From Litomosoides sigmodontis (taxonomy: Eukaryota > Nematoda > Chromadorea > Rhabditida > Onchocercidae), in assembly GCA_963070105.1 (NCBI GenBank), contig OY718805.1, positions 8,809,152-8,873,151 on the forward strand: DNA of 64,000 nt, in the 5' to 3' direction. The notes below the pieces were generated by a model. That model ran no database searches. It had not been told where the DNA came from and worked only from the letters and a program-made list of their open reading frames with translations. How positions within the stretch are numbered: the stretch's first letter is position 1; every line of letters begins with the position of its first letter. Made by a program: the position numbers and the translations under genes. Positions 1,804-62,966 of this stretch are shown here, piece after piece.

Positions 1804-3898
1804 TGATTATCTGTTATTATTTTGTAATTATGATTTCCTTGATCATCATCACCATCATTTAAATTTGTTATTACTTATCACATCATTATCATTATTATTC
1901 TCACTATCATTATTATTGTTATCATCACCCTAATCACAGTCATGAATAACAGCATTAGTTCCCTAATTCTTTCACACAATCTAAGAGGGATCTAAGAGGC
2001 TACTCAAGATTGCCGGACATAAATGAGAGAGGACATTGCAAATGTAAACTATTCTTTCTGGTCATTTTTCCTTTACCTTATAAGCTTGTTAGGTAAGCTA
2101 ATGTATGAATCTTTCCTCTGGCTATTTGTCCACTTTAGTAACCTTTCCAATTCGGTTACAGCAATTGCATTTACAGTGGAAATGTAGGAAGCGCTCTGCT
2201 CTTAGCTGTAGAAAATCATAAATGTAATTGAGTGAGTTAGGGCTTGCAAATTATTTGATTATTAAATGTTGATTAAATTTTTAATAATTTTTATTCTTAA
2301 ATAATTTATCAATGAATTTACCAACTATTTACATTACTTAGTGCATGCAGTTTTTGCCTAGATTATTTGATTTAAGTTTATTGCACAATAATATTTTTCC
2401 ACCTATCTTTTCTAGCAATACTTTTTGAAAATATCCCTGTTGTAATTGCTTAATGATTAAAATGTTAGTTATGTTTAAAATTCGACAAATTTCAAAACAC
2501 ACGTGGAGCAATTTCATTCTTTGCAATGGAAGCAATAAAGCGAAATTATTGCTTTCCAATTGATTCACTTCGCTTTTTTACGAAGTTATTGGGTTATATT
2601 CATATTTTATAAGCTAATAAATGACAAGCAAGCTATTGCTGCTACTAGCCTATCAATATAATTTTAAAATTTAAAAATGAAGTTATTTATATTGTTCACG
2701 TAAACGTCGGTAGGTAGGTATGTTATGGATGATGTGAGTGGAGAGTGAGAAAGATTGCGTATGTTTCTTTTTTTTTTTTGCTTTTCCCACTAAATTTTCA
2801 CTGTTCCAATGCCATGACGATAATATTAACTTCATTAAATAACTTATAAAATTTATGATTAAATAATTTATAAAATAAACTGAGCACTTGAATTATTTCA
2901 AATCTCTGCAAACACTCTCTCTACTACACCTTTTGTTTTTTCCCCTTTTTCGCTCTTCATACTTTGATCAAAATTTAAAACGTTTTGCTTTTATTTGCTT
3001 ATTTCAACTTCAGTAATGCAATTGCTAACATTTTGCAAGAGGCAAAATGAATTGAGAGTGTTAGAGATTTTTTGGAAAGGTTCAACTGCAATCGAATTAA
3101 TTCATTCATAAATTATTCATTCATAATAATTTCTTTTTTTCATAATTTCAATTTTAATCTGAAGTTTATGATTCGTTTAATTATAATTTTAATTAATCAG
3201 TTCTACGACGTTTAATACTGTTTACATTTAGCTTCACTAATAGGCACCATTTATTTTAATGATTGTTTTTAAACATATTTTATTCATATTCAATGTAAAC
3301 AAACAATAACTGTTGGAACAGAGCTTATATTTATATAAAAGGAATTTTTTTTTAAAAAAATTCAAATGCTGCCTCATTTCACTTCCATCTCTATCGCTAT
3401 TTGCATTTCAATTGCGTCAAATTAATTGCAATTTTGTAACTATGCATTGAAAGCATTCAATTTTTCATCTTTCATAAAAATTTCATTGGAAAAATATAGC
3501 TAGCAGAATGTTGGGATCGTTTCTAAAACATATATTTTATACATATTAATATTATACATATTAATATACATATTAATATTATACATATTAATATATTATA
3601 TTTTAGATTTGTATCGTTTGAAATTTTATAATTTTTCCAAAATGTTTCATCCTTATTTTATTTGCAATAATTAATTATTGAATTTGTTAAAATTTTTCGC
3701 GTTTTTTTTGGAAAATTTTTTATATCTTTCAGGTGTTTCATCGATGCCAGTGAAATGATGATGATGTTGCTGCTGCTGCTACTACTACTAATGATGATGA
3801 TGAAGGAAATTGCGACAACTTATGTCGAAATTTGAAACAAGAAAAAAGCCCCCAATCAATCAATCAATCAATGATCGATCATAGCATAGGAATTTTAG
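1804..3898. other. Intergenic DNA upstream of the C2-domain gene
   Basis: AT-rich sequence with ATT/ATC microsatellite residue next to the decamer array. There is a small AT repeat at about 3533-3600 built from an ATACATATTAAT motif, and GATGAT/CTGCTG/CTACTA triplets at about 3755-3800. No convincing coding exon was found. A TTTCAG at about 3731 and an acceptor-like TTTTAG ending at 3898 could belong to the 5' part of the downstream gene. Confidence 0.45.
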
Positions 3899-4075
3899 GC
3901 ATTGCTACCAATCACTAATGCTAACGTTGCTAATTACAAGCTAATTTATTATTCGTGGAAAATTTCCGATAAAGGAGGAAGAAGAAAAGTCGCAATTGCA
4001 ACAATCAAACTGGCGTTCTGTCTCGTACGATTTGCAACACTTCTCAATCAGCTGATAATTTCAACAATTGAAATA

Positions 4076-25766
<21,691 letters not shown>

Positions 25767-27701: not shown

Positions 27702-27773
27702 GGGCTGAGCCGGTGATCGAAACCGGGACCTCTCGCACCCGAAGCGAGAATCATACCACTAGACCACTCAGCC
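27702..27773 (-). tRNA. tRNA-Pro (anticodon CGG)
   Basis: The minus strand folds as a standard cloverleaf of 72 nt. The acceptor stem GGCTGAG (27767-27773) pairs with CTCAGCC (27703-27709), with C as discriminator. The D arm contains the A-box-like TGGTCTAGTGGT. The anticodon stem CTCGC/GCGAG encloses loop TTCGGGT, giving CGG. The T arm is CCGGT-TTCGATC-ACCGG, which includes the B box. No intron is needed. Confidence 0.95.
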
Positions 27774-27865
27774 TGAGAAGGCGCCATTTATTCACTCATT
27801 TCTGCCTGATACCGTTGACTGGAAATATTTTCAATTGACGAAATGTTTTGGGCGCAAAACGGCGA

Positions 27866-27938
27866 TGCCACGAGCCGGGATCGAACCGGCGACCTTTAGA
27901 TCTTCAGTCTAACGCTCTCCCGACTGAGCTATCATGGC
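27866..27938 (-). tRNA. tRNA-Phe (anticodon GAA)
   Basis: The minus strand gives a 73-nt cloverleaf. The acceptor GCCATGA pairs with TCGTGGC (one T-G pair), with discriminator A. The D arm is TAGCTCAGTCGGGAGAGC. The anticodon arm TTAGA-CTGAAGA-TCTAA has GAA as anticodon, and the T arm is GCCGG-TTCGATC-CCGGC. The plus-strand open frame across it (starting 27848) is only the antisense of the tRNA. Confidence 0.96.
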
Positions 27939-29477
27939 ACATAGTGCCGCTCTTTCAGGAATTTATTTTCCCTCAATTAATAAATTGCAGTATCATAATC
28001 CTCTCAACGAAAACTTTTCAACAACTGTTGAGCTTTAGCTATGCAATTTTATTTCGCTAAATTTTATAACCTCATAGTATTTCAATTTGATAATTTAGAA
28101 ATTAAAACATTTTTTGGTCGCTAACTTCCATGTGCAGCTGTTGCTTGTTGTCACTTGAATGCATGAAAGGATTAATGATAAAAGCTAAAATAAATTAGGC
28201 ACGTAGGTTAGGTATGTGCTAGGTATGTGTTTGTACCATCATTTCATCTATACGTGCACATATATATATACGCTAAAGTAATTGTTCGAAAATTGCAGAT
28301 ATTTTGTAACAGCTAGCAGTAAACGTTCTTTGCACTTTTTTTCTATTAGCATCAATATTAAACTTTTAAAATTTCAAAGAAAAAAAACAAACAAACAAAC
28401 TTTTTTGGAGACTTTTGAAATTTCAAATAAAAGAAAACAATAATTGCATTTTTTATGGAACAAAAGTGATAGTAAATTTCGAGTGAAATATTTGGCTTAT
28501 AGGAGGAAGTCATTTCAACAATCATTTCTAATTAATTTAGTTCTACTTCAGCTTTAGCTGGTTTTCTTTTTTTTCGAAATTTCTATTCCTTTCAATGCAA
28601 CAATGGTGCAGCTGTCAGTGGAGGGAGGAAGCTGAAGGTGCTTAATTAATAGGAAGTAATACTTTACTCATGCACACACACACATACACACACGAAAATT
28701 CTTTGAAATATTAAAATTATCGAAGTAAAATTGCATGGAAATAATAATGCGCAAGAAATTACGACTAATTCAAAATATTACAAGCAATCAGATACAGGAT
28801 TTTTTTGAGATGGAAATTTTGCATTTTAGGCAAGTCAAAATTACTTAAGATAAAAAGCAAGGGACAATGGACACTTGGTTTGAGTGGTCAAGCATTTTGT
28901 TTGGTGGGTTGCAGTGCATTCAAAAATGAGAGACGGTCCAACGTGGAGTTTTTTTTTTTTGCCTGAATCAGACAGACCTTTACAAGTTCCTATGAAAATT
29001 AATTAATCACATCGTCATTACCTTCCTTGGTCTTCTTTTTCGTCATGCCAAGTAGCATATCAAGCTTTCTAATAAAATGATTGGATTAGTACGTGGGCGT
29101 TAGGAGAGGGGGGTTGCAGAAGTGGAAGAAAAGAAATAACTTATCATAAGACGTTAACCCTATTTTCTTTACTGTAGTTGTTTAGTCGCTCGTTCGGTAT
29201 TATACGTGCTGTATACATTTCACAATTTGAAAGCCTCTATATTTCTAAAGTAATAGTAATGGAAGGAAACGTTGTGTAAGAAATCGTCTTCAAGTTTTTT
29301 TTTTTTTTTTACTCTGCTCCAAATCTCCTTTCCATTTACTATTACATAACAATTAATGTTGCCGATAACACTAGGCAATATTTTTTGAGCGGATAGCTCA
29401 CTTTTCCACTTTTAAAGCCTCTATATTTGTAAAGTAATAGTAATGTGAATCTTGCTGATTTAATGAATTTCAGGTTG

Positions 29478-57746: not shown

Positions 57747-60700
57747 TTAGTTCTGGAATGACACGTAGTTTCGAGGTAATAAGGGCAGTGTTTCATTAAC
57801 TTCCTCTTTTGATTGTAGTATCGTATTCATTACTTCAATGGTATGTGATTGACCAACACCTGAAAGTAATAAATATCATTTACATTTGAGTGATATTGAT
57901 TATTGTAATCATGGAAGTATAAATAATGTTATAATCAATGTTTAGAATATTTATTGTATTATGAAAATTAACTAAATGATCCTTCATATTTTTTTTTTTG
58001 TTTAACCGATTTCAATCTATTTCACTTTCATCTTTTCCATTAGGAAGTTATTCCACCTTTTTCATTAAATGAAGTGAAATTGATTTTGTTTTAGAGCAAA
58101 CTTAAAATTCGCAATTCCCTTCTTTTCTTAAACATGAAGAGTGCTATTGTAAACAATATTCAAATTTTTGAAGGAAATTGTTGATGTCCGAACATTTAGG
58201 TCGAAATTCCAGCTTATCAGTCTTTACAAATAATGCTCTAGATAGTGGTGATCGTTGTCCATCTTTGAAACAAGCTGTAGCACAAAATGTATAGAACCAG
58301 TCGTAGCGTAAATCAGGAAAAACTATCCGTCGTCCACGTACTGTAATCCGCTCCCACACTGAGAAGTGAGCATTGGGATTTTCCGTGTAATAAACAATAT
58401 AATTCTGAAAGATATTATTTTTTTGAGCCAAAACCAATCACTTGAATTGTGTTAGAAGTCCTGATGAGTTAAGCATTAATTTCGAAATAATGAAAATCTC
58501 GAAATGGCATTTTTATTCTCTTAAAAAGAATCTTACTTGGAAAACATTAATTTAATTATTTGAATTGCTTATTTTAACAAACTGAATTCCTTACGTAACC
58601 TGAGGATTACTTATTATCATTATGTGTAATTTTTTAAAATATATTTTCAAAATTATAACAATGCAAAAATCCACCAATATCTACCGTGACGTCTTTCGTA
58701 CGTTTGTAAGGCGGTTCCCATGACAGCTCGATGGTATTGGCGTTTAAACGTTGAGCTAGGATGTGCTGTGGGCTGAGTTGTGGCTCTAAAGAAATATTAT
58801 TACTGAACTGCAGACAAAATTTACTTCTTGAAAATAAAGTGAAAAAATCAAATTTAATAATCGAATTTAATCCAGTCGACGACTAGTCATTATTTTTTTT
58901 TTACATCTAAAGAGCATTTCCTAAAATTTTTTGGAAAAGGATCATTTGATTTTAATTACTCCAAATTTGAGCAAGAAGTTATCGTAGGAAAAGCTTTAGC
59001 TACCTGTATACTGCACCAAATAGACTGGTTTGCTTTCACCGAAGCGTGAAACAGCAGTGATACGGAATTCATATAAGGAACATGAATCAACGCTCATAAT
59101 TTCTGCCGTATGACCTTGAATGCCACGTAGCTCACGCATTTTACTGTCTTCTTGATGCCTAAACAGACTAACTTATTTTTGACATAATCGTTCAAGTTTT
59201 CAATTGTTGAAATGTGATTTATAAGTTGAACCACCGCGAATTGTTTTGATTATGAAGTGGAGAAAACTAGAAATAGTATGAATAAGAGTAACATATGCTA
59301 AGTTATTAAATTTACCAACTGTTTATTTGTATAATATAAGCTTGAAATCAAATCTTTTGCACTCAAAAATTATAACTGCGAACTTGATCCGATAACGTAT
59401 ATTGTAGGTAACTTGATCATCGGCCGAAAATGCCGGTGCCCATGCAAGCCGGACCGAATAAGCGGATGTTGAAACAACCTGACATTCTCGTGGCGGATCA
59501 GGTGGTAGACGAGCGAACATAAATTCATCATCTGTTACTGGAAATGAATTTTATGAAATTTTTTTTCCTGACATATTGCTTTAGAAAGTAAAGTACTTCA
59601 AAAAAAATTAAGCAGAAAAAACTGAATTTTCACTCACCATCTTATTGTTTAAAAAAAAATTAATTTTAAACTTACGCATGTGTGGTCCACGTTTTTGAAA
59701 CTTTCTGCTCATTCGTCTGGCCATCATACGACCACCACTATGTTCAAATATCATACCTTTTGCTAATTCCAAAAGGATACCTGCAGTTGCTTGTCGTCGT
59801 CGCCTAAATTCTAATCACAGTTATCAGGGATAAATGGCAAAAGCTAATTGAAACTTTTTTTCGAACAGTGAAACACATATCAAATTATCTGAAACTAAAA
59901 TTAACTAGATAGTTGTGTATGACTGCTATCAAAATTATCATTTTGTAAACGTAAAGAAATATTTTGGTAAAAGGTAAAAGTTTACATGAAATTAAATAAA
60001 ATGAGAAAAAAAACGATATTAATGATTTGTCACACTAAAACAATACCTAATTTAACTAAAACAAAAAAAAAACAATAGCATTAAAGGAATTCACCAATCA
60101 ATTAATAATATATATGCCTACTACACATGTGTGCACATGTGTATTAATTAAAAATAAAATTAAAATCTCAAATACATTAAAAGAAAAAATTCATCAACCA
60201 ATTAATATGCAACGTGAGTATTAATTAAATTAAATTCTCTATTACTCCTTCACCTTTTCACTCAACACACGCACACACGCACCTTGCTTTTGCCTCACGA
60301 ATTAGGAAGAATGGATTGTTCGTTTGAATTTTACGACCAATATAGTGAATTTCCTTGAGATACATTCGACCAACTACATCCATACACATTGTGGTTAAAA
60401 TTATGCCACCCATAATGACGCATAAAACTACTAGCATATTTTGCTGTTCCGGTCGATAATCACCAAAACCTGTAGTTTTACGAATATCTTTCTTAGCTTT
60501 CAACTTACGTAGACAGTCTGCATAAGTTAAAGTAAAAAAAAAATGATTATTAAGTTTTTTTGTTTTTTTGTTAATAAAGAACTATCGATTTCTAGCACTG
60601 AATGTAGCTGTGAGTGGCTGTGCATTGGTTAAAGAAATGATAGTAATAAATTGAATAATTTTTTTTTATTAATATACTAAGTTTGGAATTTAAAAGTAAA

Positions 60701-62966
60701 ATTAGAATTTTGTAAACACATTGAAAAATTTTCACCAACCAACTGTTAAAATGCTAATAAATGTGAAATACACTGATTCAATGTATGTCCAATGTTCCTT
60801 CTTTTGAATAATGTACGAGCCAAAAAGTCCATATAAAAATACAATTAGAAATAAGATTACTGGTGGAAAACGCACAAGCTTTATTTTATCTAATAATTCC
60901 TGAAATATAAAAATTAAAAGTGAAAAAAAACAACAGCAAACAAATAGTAAATTTAAAAATTTTGAATTCATCAAGATTTACCAGATAGATGGAAAACACA
61001 CACACACAAGTTCAGTGCTTACTATATTCCCATATAAAAAACACTAGCAAATTGTATAATATTTTATTTTCAAAAAAAAAAAAGACTGCTACTAATATTT
61101 TAACAAGGGACTGTACCACTTCGTAGTAAGCTTTCATTAAATTTAAAAAGAACGAATTGAAATTTAAAACTTGTTCATCGTCATTATCGTCAAAAAATGG
61201 CCGAATCTCATGAATTGTAATGCCTTTGCGACGATCTCGCCATGTTGACAGTTTTTTCCAGCAATTGTAATGAACCAAAAAAGCACATTCTGATATGAAC
61301 TTAGCAATGTTCGCCACTGTAACAAGTGTTAGTGGAATTCCTAAAATTTAGTATAATTTAGGAAAATTAAGTACGTAAATGATAGGTTATACAGAGACTA
61401 GCGATAGAGAGTATTCTTGAATTCAATTAAAAGTATTTGAAATTTCAATGCTACGTACGCTTACCGATGAGACAATAGACTACGCCAAATAAGCGACCAG
61501 CAAATGTTGACGGTGCAATATAGCCATATCCAATTGATGTAAGCATTGTTGCAGTAAAGAAAAATGATGTGAGAAAATCCCAGGTGGGAGCAGTCGTATC
61601 GTATCCATGTCGGTACTTCAGATGTGCAGCAAATACCGTATCCACGTACTGTAAATAAATGAATAATTGCAAAACTTACTGTATTATCCTGGATAATTTG
61701 TAGATATTGTGGTTTTTGATCATTAAGCTACGTTGTTGTTTCATAAATTATGCAATAATATTTGAATAAATCAAATCAAAATTTCGCTGTAAATATAGTA
61801 CAGTAGTTATACAGTATTACATATATGTACAGTAATTATTTACTTCATAAAATTGTTCTTTGCTATCACGTTTGAATATTTTCTTCCATTTTGATCTGTC
61901 AATTTTTTGATAATTTTTTGAATGCGTTAATTTCCAAATTCGATCCACGTACTTTTCCACGCTCACATCAATCCTGCTTAGTTGAGCTGCTTTCATATCC
62001 TAAAATTAATTTAAAAATTTGACGACATATTTTTTTCAAATTTTTTTTGCTAATAATACCATACTTTCTATACTTAAGCACATTTTAGCATTTGTGCAAA
62101 CTTACCAAATCAAATTAATTTCTCAAAAGAAGCAATGATATTATACATAAGTTTTTTTTTACAAAAAAAAAAACTTTCCTTATTAGTCTTTTAATTTTTG
62201 TTTTATAATTGATTAACATAAATTCAAAGGCATAGAACTAGTAGCTTCTAAATTGCCGTATACGACAACAACAATTATGTGCCATAATTAATACTTCAAT
62301 CATCATTTTCAAATCTTTTTAAAGTTACTCTAACAAAGTGAACAGTTTTCCATTGATGATTTTTCAACTGAAAATAATCGCTAATAATTGCCCGAAGAAG
62401 TAAAAAATGAATTTTGTGTCATTCGACTTTTTTTTTCTTCGTTGAAAAATCAAAATCAAAAACTTGAACGTCCAATCGCTTTTTTAATAGAAGATTTTAA
62501 TTATAGGATTATAAAATTTTAATTTATTTTCCTAATAGTTGGTGCAGTTGAATTTGGAAAATTTTACAAACTTTAAGATGACGTCCTTCAAGTGCTTGAA
62601 ATATCCACGCTCCAAATATCATATAGAGAATACAAGCAACAATTAGTAGAAAATGCGGCGAGATAATTCTGGCAATAATTACACGTCGTAAAACTCTGCA
62701 AAAATAAAACTTCTAAATTGAAAAATTTTTTCAAATTTGCTGCAAAGGACAATTGCTGCCATAAATTGATTGCTATAAGATTTGAGAATGAAACAAAAAA
62801 AAAATTTATTTATTGAACATAGCGTGACCAATTTTGTTAATAATTTTTTTTTTGTTTTGAACAGTTTAAAAAGATAGAATGTAAGAAATAATGAATACCT
62901 TAAGAAAGACATTATGGCTAGCTGGTTGGTGAATTTGTATTGAAATTGATGTAACCATCGTGGCAT
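57747..62966 (-). CDS. Two-pore-domain K+ channel (TWK type) with C-terminal FN3 repeats
   Basis: Thirteen-exon minus-strand model, 654 aa, all phases matching. Exons 5'-3': 62966-62899, 62695-62572, 61999-61844, 61648-61465, 61340-61117, 60899-60740, 60469-60283, 59803-59676, 59537-59384, 59158-59004, 58785-58685, 58404-58194, 57859-57747. TM1 is at about 35-55 (FLLIVACILYMIFGAWIF). Pore 1 is TMLTSIGYGYIAP with filter GYG at 156-158, followed by TM2. TM3 is at about 263-283. Pore 2 is ILTVGFGDYRPE with filter GFG at 306-308, followed by TM4 (LVVLCVIMGGIILTTMCMDV). This is the K2P leak-channel order in the plasma membrane. A basic linker (ARRRRQ, MARRMSRKFQKR) then leads into two FN3-like repeats: PPDPPRECQVVSTSAYSV with YEFRITAVSRFGESKP (about 422-513), then EPQLSPQHI, IELSWEPPYK, NYIVYY and FYTFCATACFKDG (about 514-615). 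Exons 7, 8 and 9 splice in frame, supporting a real fusion. Exon 5's donor could be 3 nt shorter (61120). The last intron is the least certain. Confidence 0.87.

Follow-up and report, generated by a model that had tools for sequence, protein, structure and literature searches.

In Litomosoides sigmodontis, a single gene encodes a K2P potassium channel followed by two fibronectin type III (FN3) domains, and this K2P-FN3-FN3 layout is conserved in many roundworms and present in databases. The gene lies in a stretch of 64,000 nucleotides (the window) from contig OY718805.1, positions 8,809,152 to 8,873,151 of the forward strand. On its minus strand, positions 62966-57747 form one open reading frame over 13 exons, free of stops and with all introns GT-AG, in which the channel and the FN3 domains share the same frame. 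Two Pfam families score well above their cut-offs: Ion_trans_2 (PF07885) with 102.4 bits in two stretches (cut-off 22.5) and fn3 (PF00041) with 61.4 bits, also in two stretches (cut-off 25). The proposal of the initial annotation that a K2P and two FN3 repeats belong to one gene is thus upheld. K+ selectivity signatures are found in both pore loops, TSIGYG at residue 153 and TVGFG at 286, the latter followed by D, and four transmembrane (TM) helices and an extracellular cap identify the channel part as a K2P. The residue at TM2.6 is Leu183; a hydrophobic residue at this position is given as typical of most K2Ps in PMC6377628.

The gene starts at about 62966, and the interval originally annotated, 57747..60469, spans exons 7 to 13 only. 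Exon 1 (62899..62966) encodes the N-terminus, and its FLR|VLRR junction is similar to FLRILRR in P0002, the orthologue from Dirofilaria. Translation may begin at the Met at 62966 or at the one within IMSFLR. Gene model and homologue alignment place TM1 and the start of the cap in exon 2 (62572..62695) and the extracellular cap in exon 3 (61844..61999). Exon 4 (61465..61648) holds the first pore, with TSIGYG at residues 153-158, and the start of TM2; exon 5 (61171..61340) contains TM2 and the cytosolic TM2-TM3 loop; exon 6 (60740..60899) was assigned TM3 and pore helix 2 from the gene model. The second selectivity filter GFGD, TM4 and the start of a conserved post-TM4 segment are in exon 7 (60283..60469), which ends in phase 2 and joins in frame, as first annotated, to exon 8 (59676..59803). 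The latter carries the rest of the conserved segment, probably helical, and a basic linker, and its phase 1 end continues in frame into exon 9 at 59537. Gene model and Pfam agree on the FN3 exons: the first half of FN3-1 (PPDPP ... RYRIK) is in exon 9 (59384..59537), its second half in exon 10 (59004..59158, phase 1 end), the first part of FN3-2 in exon 11 (58685..58785) and the remainder in exon 12 (58194..58404, phase 1 end); a structural model of P0002 further supports exons 9 and 11. Exon 13 (57747..57859), supported by gene model and homologue alignment, encodes the C-terminal tail and the stop. The alignment also reveals in it an acidic dileucine motif, ETLPLL (57777..57794, minus strand), of the form [DE]xxxL[LI]. 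FN3-1 and FN3-2 are each flanked by phase-1 introns (residues 393, 496 and 600). Phase-1 introns bounding a domain are the pattern expected from exon shuffling.

The 654-residue frame reported initially is indeed unbroken, but its length was not retained. Bases 61170-61117, 54 in all, are matched by nothing in the homologue alignment; with a donor at 61170 exon 5 yields the loop DDEQELLDK, near that of filarial homologues. Because the homologues place the end of exon 5 at 61171, and not at 61117, the protein has 636 residues, and the 654-residue frame, over-read by 54 bases, was rejected as the usual product. A longer isoform including 61170-61117 is possible. The shortening of exon 5 keeps the frame and leaves the K2P-FN3 fusion unaffected.

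The FN3 region matches 42 database proteins, 40 of which are named as nematode, ranging from filariae to Plectus, Strongyloides and root-knot nematodes. An ion-channel domain is also present in all of these except P0012 (41 of 42, precomputed domains). P0028 and P0078 even carry the database name 'Ion transport 2 and Fibronectin domain containing protein'. The claim that the architecture was undescribed therefore fails for databases, where PF07885 and PF00041 occur together in these 41 proteins and in 50 of 54 homologues of a second gene described below. Among the named FN3-bearing homologues, all of them nematodes, no Enoplea were seen (one search scored the best 7995 candidates).

It is very improbable that gene prediction has joined a K2P gene that stops near 60283 or 59676 to an independent FN3 gene. 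Several database models weigh against a single gene: in Ascaris, P0111 is channel only and P0104 is FN3 only, P0098, P0099 and P0100 begin inside TM4, and P0105 and P0106 begin after it; in addition, an unspliced exon 7 soon runs into a stop. We judge annotation splits to be the simpler explanation of the split and truncated models. P0019 has 628 residues and its longest contig 2,036 bases, leaving 152 to spare. Since a dozen introns would not fit in 152 bases, P0019 was interpreted as a transcript assembly spanning the two junctions. P0033 (670 residues, 2,524 bases, about 500 to spare) is less telling. Sequence ahead of the junction, in the channel part, is conserved, as is FN3-1, and a paralogue on another contig has the same domain order and matching FN3 introns. 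The 41 of 42 fused homologues, the read-through in P0019 and this paralogue largely refute the two-gene explanation. In two models, P0009 and P0058, from Mesorhabditis spiculigera and Plectus, the K2P-FN3 protein continues into an unrelated stretch; these are probably annotation fusions, and P0058 bears the name DDB1- and CUL4-associated factor 7.

By its position in a protein tree, the window gene is a TWK-30-type K2P channel of a filaria-like nematode. In this tree (83 rows, midpoint root; 12 of the 93 proteins P0001-P0093 were omitted as short or partial), P0038 of A. avenae, named TWK-30, falls with the window gene in a group of 34 rows with a Shimodaira-Hasegawa-like approximate likelihood ratio test (SH-aLRT) support of 100. 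A caveat is that the link to C. elegans TWK-30 is made through the name of P0038 and the family, not through a C. elegans sequence. The tree in PMC9049526 gives 47 TWK channels for C. elegans. C. elegans twk-30 is F36A2.4 and, in the portion of PMC1079822 available, is listed as a K+ channel of all ventral-cord motor neurons; muscle is not among its entries there. Its loss-of-function mutants have a locomotion phenotype, prolonged backward locomotion, according to PMC9049526.

Conservation was calculated as mean pairwise identity over the window protein and its 42 homologues, using for each part the pairs covering at least 70% of it. In the channel of the TWK-30 group, identity is 0.80 for P1-TM2, 0.68 for TM3-P2-TM4, 0.36 for the cap and 0.39 for the N-terminus with TM1. 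Beyond TM4, it is 0.84 for the post-TM4 segment, 0.50 for the basic linker, 0.77 for FN3-1, 0.76 for FN3-2 and 0.58 for the tail. By this measure, the FN3 domains of the TWK-30 group are conserved about as strongly as the first pore, with the post-TM4 segment above both. The linker has a mean net charge of +6.9 (range -4 to +10; matched in 41 of 43 sequences). The [DE]xxxL[LI] motif is found near the C-terminus in 37 of the 43 sequences, and the other 6 end or diverge earlier.

A second K2P-FN3 gene was found in the same genome, on contig C5, where an fn3 match follows a K2P pore after 2.2 kb. This gene (C5:1945908-1951064; positions 2909-8065 of locus L017) was modelled with 14 exons and with its 5' end left unresolved. 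One exon of this model, in the linker and containing a QLQQDF-type repeat, is unsupported by homologues. Over 620 alignment columns the two genes share 158 identical residues (25%) and are collinear through both FN3 domains. The homologues of the C5 gene, among them CRE-TWK-32 (P0065), define a TWK-32 group. Here too the post-TM4 segment is the most conserved part (0.78), followed by P1-TM2 (0.68), TM3-P2-TM4 (0.62) and the FN3 domains (0.59 and 0.57); in this group, then, the FN3 domains rank below the pores.

Three introns within the FN3 domains coincide between the two genes, at columns 613, 672 and 705, in phases 2, 1 and 0. The FN3 entry intron has equal phase in both, three columns apart in a gapped stretch, while among the channel introns there is no exact match, only two pairs of equal phase within six columns. 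Because three introns match in column and phase, the FN3 pairs of the two groups share one source. Each group also holds a protein of Plectus, a plectid chromadorean (P0025 and P0058), so both lines existed before Plectus separated from the remaining Chromadorea sampled. Either an already fused gene may have been duplicated, or the FN3 cassette may have been transferred between two K2Ps. In a channel-only tree of 30 rows (14 FN3-K2Ps and 16 other K2P-like loci of the genome; 13 of 29 such loci were omitted for too few aligned residues), the two FN3-K2Ps of the genome group together, with a support of only 34.

No third K2P-FN3 gene was found in a genome search with the FN3 pairs, which matched themselves plus weaker FN3 stretches. 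From 52 Ion_trans_2 matches, that at C5:1946936 alone has an fn3 match on the same strand within 40 kb, as judged with 28 of 69 fn3 rows; the rest, for the most part additional members of arrays already represented, were set aside. The FN3 exons of the window gene were themselves missed by the Pfam fn3 scan of the genome, probably as a result of their interruption by introns, so that such scans undercount FN3 domains.

Structure prediction was carried out with AlphaFold on P0002 with 41 relatives. The model contains a K2P fold and two FN3 sandwiches, with strands at 384-456 and 464-565. The mean predicted local distance difference test (pLDDT) value is 75.7, with 78-95 in the FN3 blocks and 26-60 over the linker, tail and post-TM4 segment. 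The channel model matches K2P1 and TRAAK structures, and the FN3 pair matches pairs of LAR, neogenin, titin and integrin beta4. In comparisons with Foldseek and VIA-align, rows spanning both FN3 domains have a root-mean-square deviation of at least 8 Angstrom, probably because the inter-domain angle differs. A cytosolic location of the FN3 pair is predicted from K2P topology, and the lack of conserved sequons is consistent with it. Two cysteines of FN3-1, Cys411 in exon 9 and Cys470 in exon 10, never vary among TWK-30 group sequences (42 of 42 and 43 of 43), though the domain should be cytosolic; they were considered as a possible disulfide pair.

We consider it probable that the protein serves as a background K+ channel, docked to a partner by its cytosolic FN3 pair and set in its surface density by the dileucine motif. 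The channel part would form a K+ leak pathway, and the tail with the FN3 pair would lie inside the cell. Being folded and conserved, and connected to TM4 by a segment of even higher conservation, the FN3 pair is best explained by a binding partner. We infer, by analogy with integrin beta4 and its partners plectin and BP230, that it may act as a docking module anchoring the channel to the cytoskeleton or to a scaffold. Acidic dileucine motifs bind adaptor protein (AP) complexes, and the motif in the tail could recruit clathrin adaptors and so adjust the amount of channel kept at the surface. TM4 takes part in gating in other K2Ps; more speculatively, the conserved segment might relay to it a force on the FN3 pair or the binding of a partner there.

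Several observations count against this docking role. Within the post-TM4 segment pLDDT is 45-60, the predicted template modelling score (pTM) is 0.45 and a helix at 333-359 is uncertain; with such values the model fixes neither the orientation of the FN3 pair nor the structure of this segment. In sequence, the FN3 pair is nearest, among the matches listed, to extracellular LAR (E 2.3e-18) and to titin (4.1e-18), and integrin beta4 is absent from the best 60 of 87 FN3 sequence matches. The pair may be LAR-like or titin-like in origin. The dileucine motif occurs in just 4 of 51 C-termini of the TWK-32 group, one of them from a truncated model. The docking role depends neither on the post-TM4 helix nor on P0033 and P0069, both of which carry reduced weight.

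The titin matches would suit a tether to the sarcomere, the first of the scaffolds suggested by the initial annotation. The best other FN3 matches of the genome also lie in a dense fn3 cluster (C6:4404313-4422651), but the similarity is weak (27.6 bits, E 4.9e-5). The expression of twk-30 in motor neurons weakens this part of the suggestion, and a muscle tether appears improbable; the tether may instead be to a cortical or cytoskeletal scaffold. Given this expression and the extended backward locomotion on loss of twk-30, a neuronal role is favored over a sarcomeric one, and the protein may provide a background K+ leak in excitable cells, with motor neurons the probable site.

The high conservation of the post-TM4 segment, the most conserved part in both families (0.84 and 0.78), would also suit an FN3 pair concerned mainly with gating, tugging or stiffening the post-TM4 segment so that the leak follows cytoskeletal tension or partner binding. 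TREK-type K2Ps are gated by TM4 and the proximal C-terminus. However, the basic linker is variable (0.50), linker and segment are modelled with low confidence, a floppy linker would damp force, and assembly or lipid contact could instead explain the conserved segment; we regard such coupling as rather unlikely. The same modest chance is given to an assembly or trafficking domain that chooses subunit pairing with no outside partner. K2P channels are dimers, which would bring two FN3 pairs side by side, both paralogues have kept the pair, and the TWK-30 tail has a sorting-type motif. A further idea, that TWK-30 and TWK-32 are nematode-born leak channels in which a cytosolic FN3 pair forms a mechanical link between the TM4 gate and the cytoskeleton of motor neurons, is doubtful; if true, the resting K+ leak would track body bending.

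No paper naming the K2P-FN3 architecture was found in the open literature (a scope that takes in neither paywalled papers nor variant spellings of the domain name), and the word 'fibronectin' does not occur in the accessible parts of PMC9049526 and PMC6377628. The layout is apparently undescribed in print. Two named TWK groups carry a folded domain pair as tail, one of them with near-pore conservation and a fixed sorting-type motif, and the existing C. elegans twk-30 mutants make control of leak-channel placement or gating by the tail directly testable.

Elsewhere, the window contains a TTATTTATTA array of about 80 copies (1020-1822), an 855-base TAC trinucleotide array (14011-14865; 142.7 six-base copies, 99% matches) and a minisatellite of 38-base units in 14.8 copies (18996-19561). 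Two tRNA genes, Pro(CGG) and Phe(GAA), with 90 bases between them, are on the minus strand at 27702-27939.

Vertebrate K2Ps (TWIK-1/K2P1, TRAAK and TASK) have the same channel fold, cap and two pores as the window protein. Among the best 60 of 173 solved-structure chains, none matched the channel and FN3 parts of the profile together in its best stretch. LAR-type receptor phosphatases and titin have the closest FN3 sequences with solved structures, among the matches listed. The FN3 domains of LAR are extracellular and those of titin sarcomeric; to our knowledge, neither are fused to any channel. Integrin beta4 is a membrane protein with tandem cytosolic FN3 domains, solved with plectin or BP230 (3f7p and 6gvl; also 1qg3), but its membrane part is unrelated and its FN3 sequence not specially close. 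Members of the TWK-32 group share with the window protein the order of a K2P and two FN3 domains, with three FN3 introns identical in column and phase, but differ in their 25% identity, their lower conservation and their C-termini, 18 of 51 of which end in [ST]ALR. Caenorhabditis TWK-30 falls in the same orthologue group as the window gene, through the name of P0038 and the shared clade; after the dileucine motif the window tail reads SFQN, and those of the Caenorhabditis relatives P0007 and P0098 read SFAV.
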